A stretch of 64,000 bases of DNA. Origin: an uncultured beta proteobacterium. Its GTDB lineage: Bacteria; Pseudomonadota; Gammaproteobacteria; Burkholderiales; Burkholderiaceae_C. This document shows, one piece after another, positions 55,433 to 59,635 of the stretch; position 1 is the first letter of the stretch; every line of letters starts with the position of its first letter. The position numbers and the translations under genes are program-made. The DNA lies in the NCBI GenBank assembly GCA_903894475.1, contig CAITQH010000114.1, positions 1-64,000 of the forward strand, given 5' to 3'. The notes under the pieces are model-generated. The model searched no databases. It worked only from the letters and a program-made list of their open reading frames with translations, and had not been told where the DNA came from.

Positions 55433-56713
55433 TTAGAAGTAACCCAGAATGTTACCAACATTAGGCACTCCCAGGCCCGTCACATCGTCGTAGCCTGGAC
55501 CCGCGACGCACAGCGCGCAAACACCACGCCCCATCCTGTTTGTGCCGCTCGTGACGTCAAAGAAACTGCTGCTTGCACTCTGGATAATCTTGGCCTGATA
55601 AATCAAGTTGTTGAAGCCGCTGTTGCCAATCACCATGGTGCTGAGCGAAGCGCCATTTTGCTGCATATGCTGCGCCATCAGAGCAACAATACCAGCCCAC
55701 TGGGGTGATCCTGCGCTGGTACCGCCAATCGCAGACCAGGCGCCGTTGACGTAAACGCCCACCGGGCTGGTCATCGTGTCGGCGTTGTAAGCCACATCCG
55801 GAATTGCGCGCTTGCCGTGATTGAGCGAAAGGATGCTTGAGTTACCGAGGTAGCCGACTTGATAACGCGGCATAACTTCAAAAATACTTGCGCCCCCGCC
55901 GCCCATCGACCACGCCACCTCACTGTTGTTTGAAGTCAAAGTCAGTGACTTGATACTGGTACCACCAACGGCCGTGACGAATGGGGATGCTGCCGGATAG
56001 ATCTGGTTGTTACCATTGTTACCGGAGTCCCCCGCCGCGGCCAGGAATACGACGCCAGGATAGCCAGCGAAGACCCCGTCAAACGACGCCGAAGTTTCTG
56101 CACTGAACTCCGCAGTACCCCAACTCATCGATACCGCGGCAACACCCGGTAGCGCAGCGGCTTTTTTCACTGCCGCGAACATGTCAGTCAGAGACGAACT
56201 TGCTGCCACCACCAGGTAAATAGTGGCCGCCGGAGCCACGGCATGCGCCCACTGCACGTCCAGCGCTATTTCACTGGCCCAGTCGTTGCTGCGTGATACT
56301 GCTCTGCCATTGCTCAGATCAATTTTCTGGAAGCAGGGGTTGACCGTATTGCACAAGGGCAAGCGGTAGAAGGCTGAAAATGTATTCAAGTCACTGGCAA
56401 TGCTGCCCGATCCAGGCGCGGTGACGACAGCAAGGACTTGCCCAGCCCCTGTCAATGCTGAAGGCATGTTGTAGTGGGTGCGAATATCGGCAGGACTGAG
56501 CGTGGTGCCAATACCCGTCCCAATCCATCTGTTGACAGCCAGGGAACGGGTCGCCATGGGCACCGAATGACTTTGCGCCCGCGCCATTGGCTCTGCAGTC
56601 ACATCGACAAGTTCGCCGCCACCGCATCCCTGCAGCAGGACAGACACGCTCGCTACCAGCAGGCAACCCGCACTGCGGCAGACAACTCTTGAGAATGCAA
56701 ATCTGGTAATCAA
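55433..56713 (-). CDS. S53 (sedolisin-type) lipoprotein peptidase without propeptide
   Basis: A 426-residue protein from TTG 56713, chosen because GGAGC lies 5 nt upstream; the ORF-track start at 56908 lies beyond the promoter. The signal (CRSAGCLLVASVSVLLQGC) ends in lipobox LLQGC. The S53 catalytic domain follows: Glu/Asp in DWASEIALDVQWAHAVAPAA, oxyanion Asp in AAAGDSGNNG, nucleophile Ser in GGTSAGSPQWAG, and the Ca-binding end FFDVTSGTN...GYDDVTGLGVPN. The roughly 180-residue inhibitory prodomain usual in sedolisins is missing; only about 40 residues precede the domain. It is divergent from DUF6502. Confidence 0.85.
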   Translation of the reverse strand: MITRFAFSRVVCRSAGCLLVASVSVLLQGCGGGELVDVTAEPMARAQSHSVPMATRSLAVNRWIGTGIGTTLSPADIRTHYNMPSALTGAGQVLAVVTAPGSGSIASDLNTFSAFYRLPLCNTVNPCFQKIDLSNGRAVSRSNDWASEIALDVQWAHAVAPAATIYLVVAASSSLTDMFAAVKKAAALPGVAAVSMSWGTAEFSAETSASFDGVFAGYPGVVFLAAAGDSGNNGNNQIYPAASPFVTAVGGTSIKSLTLTSNNSEVAWSMGGGGASIFEVMPRYQVGYLGNSSILSLNHGKRAIPDVAYNADTMTSPVGVYVNGAWSAIGGTSAGSPQWAGIVALMAQHMQQNGASLSTMVIGNSGFNNLIYQAKIIQSASSSFFDVTSGTNRMGRGVCALCVAGPGYDDVTGLGVPNVGNILGYF

Positions 56714-56818
56714 TCTTCGCTCCAATATGAACAGAGGGTCAGGATGGCACCGTGTGAAGACTATTCCATTCTTCTTGGCAGTGTTGCAATAAATTGTCAC
56801 AGCGCGAAGGAAATTGAG

Positions 56819-56847
56819 TTGACATTGTGGGAAACTTTCCCGACAAT
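56819..56847 (+). promoter_or_regulatory. Sigma-70 promoter with palindromic operator for DUF6502-DUF5666
   Basis: TTGACA (56819-56824), 17-bp spacer, GACAAT (56842-56847). The spacer contains the perfect palindrome GGGAAA-C-TTTCCC (56829-56841), flanked by ATTGT and ACAAT arms. This is the best-looking promoter in the window. The start of DUF6502 lies 50 bp downstream. Operator function is inferred from position. Confidence 0.7.
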
Positions 56848-56896
56848 GGCGACCGTTGCAACTCGCCGCTCGTAGGCTGGAAAATTTGACCAAGCA

Positions 56897-57832
56897 ATGA
56901 CGAAACACAATCGACGGGCTGCCAGCTTACCTCCCCAGAAAGCGGCGGGTTTGCCCGAGCCAGCGATGGCAGCGCAGGCCATTGCCCTGGTGCTTCAACC
57001 ACTTGCACGCCTGATGATCGATCACGGTCTGCAGTTGCCATCTCTGATTGATTTGCTAAAAACGGCCTTGGTTCAGGAAGCTGTGACCGCGTATGGCCTG
57101 GCGGAAAAGGGAAGTTCTGACACACGGATTGCGCTGCTGACAGGAGTTCATCGTAAGGACGTCAGACGGCTGCGTGCACAGCCTGTTTCAACTGAGGGCG
57201 TCAGTCCGATGATGCCGGTGGCTGCATCGGTTGTGGCACGCTGGATCAGCGAGCCACGTTATTTGAATGCGGATCAAACCGCCCGAGCTCTGGCGCGCAC
57301 GCCGGGCCGTGGCAGTGAGGGCGAATTTGACTTCACGACACTGGTCGCGGAGGTCAGCCGCGACGTTGGCGCCCGGGCCGTCCTGGATGAACTCGATCGG
57401 CTCGGTGTTGTCGACCTGCGTGAAGACGGCTATGTGGCGCTCAAGTCCACGGCCTTCGTGCCGCAAGAAGGACTGCGCGAGTCCTTTCACTTTCTCGCCG
57501 CCAATGTCAGCGACCATCTGAGCGCGGCGGTGCACAACTTGAAGCCCGGTCGTCAAAGTCCGGCTCTGCTCGATCAGAGTGCCTTTTCACAGGATTTGTC
57601 GGCTGCACAGGCGCAGCAGTTGCAGCAGCAGGCGCGGCGCCTTTGGGCCAGCGCGCTGCAGCAGTTTTTGCAGACTGCAACCGTCGCTGAGGAGCGCAGT
57701 CAGAAAAGCAAAGGGGCGCGGCATCGCGTTCGCTTCGGTGTCTACTTTCACGAAGCGCTGCAGCCGTCAGCCGATGCGGGCAGTGCCGGTGGCGCAACAA
57801 CGCAAGAGATCAAGAGGAAGAAAGCATCATGA
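56897..57832 (+). CDS. DUF6502 family protein (HTH-like)
   Basis: A 311-residue cytoplasmic protein recognised as DUF6502. Residues 70-95 (SSDTRIALLTGVHRKDVRRLR) look like a helix-turn-helix, followed by winged-helix-like segments (LDELDRLGVVDLREDGYVALKS). The C-terminal 100 residues are Gln/Ala-rich helices. No enzymatic motif is seen. It is coupled by ATGA overlap to a Tat lipoprotein gene and has its own strong promoter with an embedded palindrome, so a DNA-binding role is plausible but unproven. Confidence 0.75.
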   Translation: MTKHNRRAASLPPQKAAGLPEPAMAAQAIALVLQPLARLMIDHGLQLPSLIDLLKTALVQEAVTAYGLAEKGSSDTRIALLTGVHRKDVRRLRAQPVSTEGVSPMMPVAASVVARWISEPRYLNADQTARALARTPGRGSEGEFDFTTLVAEVSRDVGARAVLDELDRLGVVDLREDGYVALKSTAFVPQEGLRESFHFLAANVSDHLSAAVHNLKPGRQSPALLDQSAFSQDLSAAQAQQLQQQARRLWASALQQFLQTATVAEERSQKSKGARHRVRFGVYFHEALQPSADAGSAGGATTQEIKRKKAS

Positions 57833-58995
57833 GCAAGTCTGAGAAGGCACATGCGCAACTGACACGGCGTCACTGGATGGTATTGGCGGCGTCCGCCGTG
57901 ACGGCCGGATGCGGCGGTGGTGGCACGACTGGCATCGCCGGCTTGCCCGGCACCGGTGGCACCGGCGTGTTTGCGCAGGGGGCCATTTCCGGCTTTGGCA
58001 GTGTCATCATCAATACGATCAAGTTTGACGACACGCTGGCCGCCGTGCTGATTGACGGTCAGAGCGCCACCTCGGCGGATTTGCGACTGGGTATGGTGGC
58101 GAGCGTGCAGGGCCAGCGGGGTTCTGATGCCACGCAGGGAACAGCCAACAGCATTGAAGTCTGGTCGATTGCCCAGGGCCTGGTCAGCGCCGGGCGCGCC
58201 ACGCCTGGCAGCAGCGGCCAGTTCACGCTCTCTGGCATGACCGTGCTGACCGACTTGAACACGGTATTTGAGGGCAGCAGCGCAACGCACCCCGTTCTTC
58301 CCGGTCAGCGTGTTGCGGTATGGGGTTTGCAGACCGGCACCGATGCTCGTACCTGGAGCGCAACACGAGTTGCTCTTGTATCTGCCACCGCAGTGGTCAG
58401 CACAGGTCTGGTCAGCATCGCCAACTCGCAACGCAGTGTCAACGGACTGCTGCTGAGCGGCGACGCAGCGCGTGCACTCGCTGCCGGTGACCTGGTGCGC
58501 GTTCGCGGGACTCTGTCCTCCACCGATGGCAGTCTGTCGGTACAGAGCGTCCAGTATCCTTCTGTGCCTGCGACCAGTGCGCAGCAGGGTGAGGCCGAAA
58601 TTGAAGGATGGGTGACCAGTGTGGCCACAAGTGGCCGTTTCAACCTCGGTAGTGTTGTGGTGGATGCCAGTCAGGCCGTGTTCGACCCAGCCAGCGCCCT
58701 TGTCGCTGCCGGTAGCCGCGTTGAAGTCAGTGGCGTCTGGCAATCAGGGGTGCTCAAGTCGACCAAAGTCCGAATCCAGAACGTGCAAGAAATCGAAACG
58801 GTGGAAATCAGTGGCCGCATTCAGGAGTTCACGAGCCTGGCCAACTTTGTGGTGCGGGGTCAGCCCTGCGATGCGTCCGGTCTCGGCGTGGTCAGTAACG
58901 GAAAATTGACCGACCTGAAGCTTGGCGTTGCCGTCAAACTCACAGGCACCAAAGCCGGCGATGTGTTGAAAGTGACCAAGCTCGAACTTGCCTAG
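57829..58995 (+). CDS. DUF5666 repeat lipoprotein, Tat-exported
   Basis: A 388-residue protein: twin-arginine signal TRRHWMVLAASAVTAGC with lipobox VTAGC (Cys near residue 28), Gly-rich linker, then several DUF5666/OB-fold-like repeats (GQGAISGFGSVIINT-type start, VWGLQT, VRVRGTLSS, EIEGWVTSV, VEVSGVWQSG, VKLTGTKAG). It is a cell-envelope beta-rich protein of unknown function. It starts inside the DUF6502 stop (ATGA). It converges with the LysE gene. Confidence 0.8.
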   Translation: MSKSEKAHAQLTRRHWMVLAASAVTAGCGGGGTTGIAGLPGTGGTGVFAQGAISGFGSVIINTIKFDDTLAAVLIDGQSATSADLRLGMVASVQGQRGSDATQGTANSIEVWSIAQGLVSAGRATPGSSGQFTLSGMTVLTDLNTVFEGSSATHPVLPGQRVAVWGLQTGTDARTWSATRVALVSATAVVSTGLVSIANSQRSVNGLLLSGDAARALAAGDLVRVRGTLSSTDGSLSVQSVQYPSVPATSAQQGEAEIEGWVTSVATSGRFNLGSVVVDASQAVFDPASALVAAGSRVEVSGVWQSGVLKSTKVRIQNVQEIETVEISGRIQEFTSLANFVVRGQPCDASGLGVVSNGKLTDLKLGVAVKLTGTKAGDVLKVTKLELA

Positions 58996-59005
58996 ACGCC
59001 ATCGA

Positions 59006-59635
59006 TCATTCGTGCGCCGTCACCATCAACGCAGCGAATCCGATGAAGATGCCGCCTGTCAGTCGATTGAAAGCGCGCATGACGCTCGCGCTTTGCAGGT
59101 AGGCAGACAGGCGCTTGCCGCTGAAGGCGTAAACAAAATACCAGACGATCTCAATTACCGTAAACGTCGCCAGCAGGATGCTCAACTGCGGCAAAGTGGC
59201 CGCCTGTGGTTGGATGAACTGCGGAAAAAAGGCGGCGGCAAAAAGTAGCGCCTTCGGATTGCTCGCCGCCACCAGCAAACCTTGCCGAAATAGCATCGCC
59301 GGTCTTGCTGCCAAAGTGGCTGGCTGAGGCGCGCCCTTCATGTCCTGCGCAACCGGTGAACGCCAGTTCTTGACACCCAGGTAGGCCAGGTAGGCGGCTC
59401 CGGACAAGCGCAGCGCGTCAAATATTGTCGGAAAGGTATGCAACAAAGCGCCCAAGCCGGCAGCAGAAATAGTCATCATCGTCAGCAAGGCCGTCAAGCA
59501 TCCGGCCATGGTGGCGACGGCCGCGCGCAAACCGAAACGTGCACTGTTGCTCATCACCAGCAGCATGTTTGGACCCGGTGTTGCTGCCACAAAAAAGATC
59601 ATCAGAACGAACAGCCACCACGTTTGCAGACTCAT
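59006..59635 (-). CDS. LysE-family amino-acid exporter
   Basis: A 209-residue protein with about six hydrophobic segments. FVAATPGPNMLLVMSNSARFGLRAAV near residue 15 is the RhtB/LysE signature (TPGPN), and GLLVAASNPKALLFAAAFFPQF near 120 is the second conserved block. Substrates in the family are amino acids such as threonine, homoserine and lysine; not assignable here. ATG 59635 is used. A REP-like palindrome lies just upstream. Confidence 0.93.
   Translation of the reverse strand: MSLQTWWLFVLMIFFVAATPGPNMLLVMSNSARFGLRAAVATMAGCLTALLTMMTISAAGLGALLHTFPTIFDALRLSGAAYLAYLGVKNWRSPVAQDMKGAPQPATLAARPAMLFRQGLLVAASNPKALLFAAAFFPQFIQPQAATLPQLSILLATFTVIEIVWYFVYAFSGKRLSAYLQSASVMRAFNRLTGGIFIGFAALMVTAHE

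Follow-up and report, generated by a model that had tools for sequence, protein, structure and literature searches.

DUF6502, a predicted helix-turn-helix protein, as the probable regulator of DUF5666 lipoprotein genes in Proteobacteria

What does a protein of the DUF6502 family do next to a DUF5666 lipoprotein gene, behind a promoter that holds a palindrome in its spacer? The question is raised by a locus in the window, the whole 64,000-nucleotide stretch of DNA analysed here (Table 1), for which an earlier note had proposed that DUF6502 binds the palindrome and thereby controls itself, the lipoprotein and perhaps a divergent S53 peptidase, as an envelope sensor-effector unit. According to our analysis, there is a high probability that DUF6502 is a helix-turn-helix (HTH)/winged-helix regulator, presumably an autorepressor, of a DUF5666-lipoprotein regulon, an assignment based on conservation, position, linkage and motif association, in which direct binding, dimerisation and the sign of regulation are what we infer.

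Genes and promoter of the locus

The promoter described in the earlier note, TTGACA-N17-GACAAT with the palindrome in its spacer, was located correctly, and GGGAAACTTTCCC, of which the whole window has a single exact copy, covers 13 of the 17 bases between the two elements. The outer ATTGT/ACAAT arms by which the palindrome was said to be extended are present but offset by one base. In the relatives L016, L025, L028 and L029, the promoter is kept as TTGACA-N17-GATAAT.

Table 1. Positions, in the window, of the DUF6502-DUF5666 pair, its promoter and the divergent neighbour
Feature	Position	Strand	Basis
-35-like element TTGACA	56819..56824	+	Only promoter-like match in 56650-59100
Putative operator palindrome GGGAAACTTTCCC, core GGGA-N5-TCCC	56829..56841	.	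Perfect 6-1-6 inverted repeat; type conserved upstream of DUF6502 genes
-10-like element GACAAT	56842..56847	+	17-nt spacer after TTGACA
DUF6502 (PF20112) gene, 311 aa, proposed operator-binding regulator	56897..57832	+	Pfam score; structure models
HTH of DUF6502, residues 73-94, predicted recognition helix HRKDVRRLR	57113..57178	+	Helices 75-82 and 86-94 in model; conservation
Winged-helix-like unit of DUF6502, residues 146-182	57332..57442	+	Model: helices 146-153 and 159-168; strands 172-174 and 179-182
DUF5666 lipoprotein gene, 388 aa, Tat signal and lipobox	57829..58995	+	Pfam DUF5666 repeats; ATGA overlap with DUF6502
Divergent S53 (kumamolisin/sedolisin-like) peptidase, lipobox-like N-terminus	55433-56726	-	phmmer against PDB

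The first gene of the pair encodes a clear match to Pfam DUF6502 (80.4 bits, gathering cut-off 27), in which no signal or membrane segment was seen. Its HTH-like segment, SDTRIALLTGVHRKDVRRLR, which had been proposed from the letters, proved to be the best-conserved stretch in the family, with G83 and R86 invariant and K87, V89 and R91 nearly so. An AlphaFold2 model built from 49 diverse sequences (mean pLDDT 84) consists of the HTH, the winged-helix-like unit and two long C-terminal helices, the HTH and winged-helix units being predicted at a pLDDT of about 80-97. The DNA-binding fold on which the earlier note had staked its proposal is therefore present in the model, and Foldseek searches of the PDB returned transcription factors first, with every match at E >0.001.

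The coupling of this gene through ATGA to a twin-arginine lipoprotein, whose N-terminus reads ...LTRRHWMVLAASAVTAGC, holds as described. The lipoprotein matches Pfam DUF5666 (PF18914) with 69.1 bits against a gathering cut-off of 27 and in four stretches at E<=1; of the repeated OB-like domains attributed to it, the DUF5666 repeats are clear, but the matches to OB folds are weak. The window's assembly contains a second DUF6502-DUF5666 pair (L002, on G000:C253), in which the same lipoprotein starts as in L016 and L025, which come from other species. This pair may be a contaminant, 7% contamination being given for the assembly, and the region upstream of its DUF6502 gene cannot be read, the contig breaking off within that gene.

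Occurrence of the gene pair and of the palindrome in other genomes

Of the genomes sampled, 99 of 369 from the class and 15 of 299 from the phylum had DUF6502. Its pairing with DUF5666, which the earlier note had suggested surveying, is nearly universal: 55 of 62 representative downstream proteins match DUF5666, and in L247 and L254 a DUF5666 gene also precedes DUF6502. In the Rhodoferax clade the two genes overlap by ATGA at 42 of 47 loci and the partner carries the RR motif at 46 of 47. Tat export was rejected as a general feature since it is mainly found in this clade; outside it, the partner is usually a Sec-type-like lipoprotein or secreted protein with GIGGTG repeats. A protein of roughly 260 aa resembling an outer-membrane barrel (weak PF13557) adjoins the pair in 26 loci (L090:8388-9167; L086, L087, L097, L101 and others) and is a possible third member of the unit. 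In the Burkholderiales loci L033, L065 and L076, thiol-redox genes flank the pair, with DsbD convergent and, in L033 and L065, a TlpA-like redoxin divergent.

In the window's own genome, the short palindrome GGGAA-N1-5-TTCCC is at background (12 occurrences, the reversed control having 11), and most other copies lie inside genes, for which reasons a global regulon in this genome was rejected. The palindrome is judged to exceed chance because it is conserved and consistently placed in other genomes, and not from the counts in the window's genome. In 26 loci from related genomes, the majority of DUF6502 genes whose upstream region is intact have a similar palindrome, often in two copies, and in an unsupervised count of inverted repeats GGGAA..TTCCC ranked first, with 58 of 135 loci against 0.7 expected. 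A weight matrix trained on the Rhodoferax clade only scored above 10 bits at 20 of 27 held-out loci, all from other Beta- and Gammaproteobacteria; such a score was reached by 0.7% of Markov sequences and by none of the 128 neighbouring windows. Among 110 class-wide loci chosen by protein family alone, exact TGGGA..TCCCA was detected in 46, compared with 0.5 in Markov sequences and 0.3 in neighbouring windows; when spacers of 0-12 were tested, only 5 (14 cases) and 6 (37 cases) were seen. Several DUF6502 loci of Alphaproteobacteria carry the same type of palindrome, for example GTGGGATtgtATCCCAC; conservation of the core GGGA-N5/6-TCCC in front of DUF6502 genes spans the Beta-, Gamma- and Alphaproteobacteria. 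These counts bear out the expectation that the palindrome would recur upstream of orthologous operons. The exact core is absent at roughly half of the class-wide DUF6502 loci, and the most diverged members of the family have other palindromes or none.

Exact GTGGGA-N5-TCCCAC sites number 20 in the 36 whole genomes searched; 15 of them lie immediately before a DUF6502 gene, and the remaining five have no gene in common. For TGGGAA-N3/4-TTCCCA, 46 genomes yielded, among the matches listed, 28 sites, the reversed control giving 6; apart from those at DUF6502 promoters, several of these sites precede DUF5666 lipoprotein genes, some of which are on other contigs (L217, L228). DUF5666 genes located well away from DUF6502 had a site, exact or with one mismatch, in about 8 of 10 cases (L217, L228, L236, L237, L238, L240, L242 and L243; none in L239 and L241), of which 6 of 8 is the motif-blind count because L217 and L228 were found through the motif itself, and of which L242 is the weakest case, the gene start beside its site being unconfirmed by the ORF check. 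By chance, a stretch of 150 bp would contain an exact site in about 0.1% of cases and a site with one mismatch in about 0.8%. At DUF5666 loci of DUF6502-negative genomes, the site was essentially absent, apart from one single-mismatch match (L282), some of these loci extending only 1.5 kb past the repeat match so that they may miss the promoter. DUF5666 itself occurs in 25 of 30 DUF6502-positive but only 8 of 108 DUF6502-negative genomes, a co-occurrence whose Fisher value is only indicative because the genomes are related to one another.

Operator-like sites were also seen before other genes. In two species of one genus (L216:2998, L218:2525), such a site precedes a gene for a protein of 352-360 aa with a weak match to MobB/DUF1611-like P-loop proteins, and in L219:2471-2914 one lies about 130-150 bp upstream of a duplicated pair of small membrane proteins of about 100 aa each.

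The half-site spacing goes with residue 85 of the HTH. Members with H85 have a spacing of 5 in all 73 cases that have a site, and members with T, S, N or Y at this position have a spacing of 6 in 39 of 40, one having both. On the tree the change of spacing and helix is one deep split, which makes their agreement mostly a clade marker, and we rejected it as statistical proof; only paralogues within one genome add weight. In G654 and G197, which have both classes with sites, the operator of each paralogue matches its own HTH class (in G654, H85 with a spacing of 5 and T85 with a spacing of 6), which argues that the type of operator is tied to the protein rather than to the genome. Four DUF6502 genes were found in G654 (L276-L278; the window's family), two of them close by on opposite strands and with operator spacings that differ according to HTH class.

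The GGGA core was found in 3 of 16 members with a changed K87 and in 113 of 183 of the others; in a tree-aware comparison, the change of K87 and the loss of the core went in the same direction in about 3 pairs against 0.1, which is not significant. The K87-altered L026, L086 and L186 have the alternative palindromes GTGTAAC..GTTACAC, GTGTAA..TTACAC and GTGTGTAattTACACAC (the example from L026 is CGTGTAACcttGTTACACG), possibly reflecting a change of specificity.

Proposed mechanism and its rivals

We propose that DUF6502 binds, probably as a dimer, the inverted repeat GGGA-N5-TCCC, or GGGA-N6-TCCC in the second clade. Since the palindrome of the window lies between the -35 and -10 elements, binding there should block RNA polymerase and so bring about negative autoregulation of the coupled DUF6502-DUF5666 operon. 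Autorepression is favoured by the place of the putative operator, which is within the -35/-10 spacer in the window as well as in L016, L025, L028 and L029, and near the start codon in loci of the second clade; that it works by blocking the polymerase we consider fairly probable. Many relatives have two operators, usually 52-65 bp apart, for which cooperative binding or looping would be plausible. The same kind of operator before distant DUF5666 genes in some genomes suggests that the unit may be a small DUF5666-lipoprotein regulon. In this way, two families of unknown function would be joined into one testable unit of regulator, operator and regulon, which is widespread across many Proteobacteria, unstudied and directly testable: the putative operator offers an immediate target for gel shifts, the rule linking recognition helix and spacing a test of specificity, and the solo DUF5666 targets a route to the purpose of the lipoproteins.

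The sign of regulation could also be the opposite. In the Rhodoferax clade, many loci have their proximal operator before the likely -35 element and a second one further upstream, positions from which DUF6502 might recruit the polymerase, and its binding in the spacer might remodel the promoter in the manner of MerR-type activators. We find activation doubtful, however, as a site that fills a standard 17-nt spacer, as in the window and the four relatives named above, or that lies near the start codon, as in the second clade, is more usual for repression. A different, unlinked regulator might instead own the palindrome, DUF6502 doing something else; the family is without a characterised member and its link to the site is predicted, which would fit such a reading. 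Yet the presence of the motif tracks DUF6502 across classes, it is essentially missing at the DUF5666 loci of DUF6502-negative genomes, paralogues in one genome carry operators that match their own HTH class, and DUF6502 has itself a modelled DNA-binding architecture, so that a foreign owner of the site appears very unlikely.

As for the divergent gene, the earlier note had counted the S53 peptidase as a possible member of the unit, and one may picture it, perhaps with the outer-membrane barrel, as an envelope-stress effector driven, like the pair, from a shared intergenic operator. The neighbour is a genuine kumamolisin-like peptidase of lipoprotein type (no Pfam match; phmmer against the PDB finds kumamolisin at 4e-23), some other loci have the operator near a divergent gene, and the barrel-like gene adjoins 26 loci. 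However, the divergent gene differs from one DUF6502 locus to another, and no S53 homologue was found at any other DUF6502 locus examined, including those of the 90% identical relatives L027 and L059. The peptidase was therefore rejected as a member of the unit, and a role for it as effector is deemed highly improbable.

A further possibility concerns the origin of DUF6502, which might be a remote relative of the cyanobacterial HetR and bind its GGG/CCC palindrome as a HetR-like dimer. HetR structures (3qod, 4izz, 4hri) are the top PDB matches of two models made from different alignments (E 7e-3 to 6.5e-2; Foldseek probability 0.60-0.93 over 306-318 aligned columns), and HetR requires a GGGnnnnnCCC inverted repeat (PMC4192349), to which the GGGA-N5/6-TCCC sites of DUF6502 may be compared. 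Against this stand TM-scores of only 0.25-0.31 with an rmsd of 13-16 A, a GGG-CCC spacing that differs by 2-3 bp, a profile search of the PDB without a match, and profile-profile comparison by hhalign with one and two HetR sequences, in which 56 of 250 decoys score as high. Homology to HetR by sequence was rejected, as the PDB profile searches and hhalign with 250 decoys were all negative. DUF6502 proteins match only PF20112 and neither of the HetR Pfam families PF03574 and PF18460, HetR matches only its own families and, weakly, YolD, and no HetR relatives were found in viral and plasmid collections. We regard the kinship as unlikely and the likeness as a lead, not as membership. More speculative still is the wider picture in which DUF6502 would be the proteobacterial branch of the HetR fold, controlling here a DUF5666 surface-lipoprotein regulon, within a widespread superfamily of GGG/CCC-operator proteins of which the heterocyst master regulator would be one specialised member.

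Comparison with known families and regulators

In the literature searched, outside which subscription papers and preprints lie, DUF6502 is unmentioned, while DUF5666 occurs in four papers, and no description of a paired regulator or operator was found for the latter. The window protein is a clear member of PF20112, a Pfam family of unknown function that has been given neither function, operator nor partner, all three of which are proposed here; its downstream neighbour has the repeats of the PF18914 DUF5666 lipoproteins, likewise a family without known function. Among characterised regulators, winged-helix autoregulators of the MarR, IclR and BusR types typically control themselves through an operator inside the promoter, and their winged helices show local likeness to that of DUF6502 in Foldseek; DUF6502 differs from them by a separate HTH before the winged helix and has no Pfam match to those families. 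HetR gives the best Foldseek match, which spans nearly all of DUF6502 and is below significance, but the two have no detectable sequence relationship, GGG and CCC are separated by 7-8 bases at DUF6502 sites and by 5 for HetR, and the lipoprotein partner is found on the DUF6502 side.
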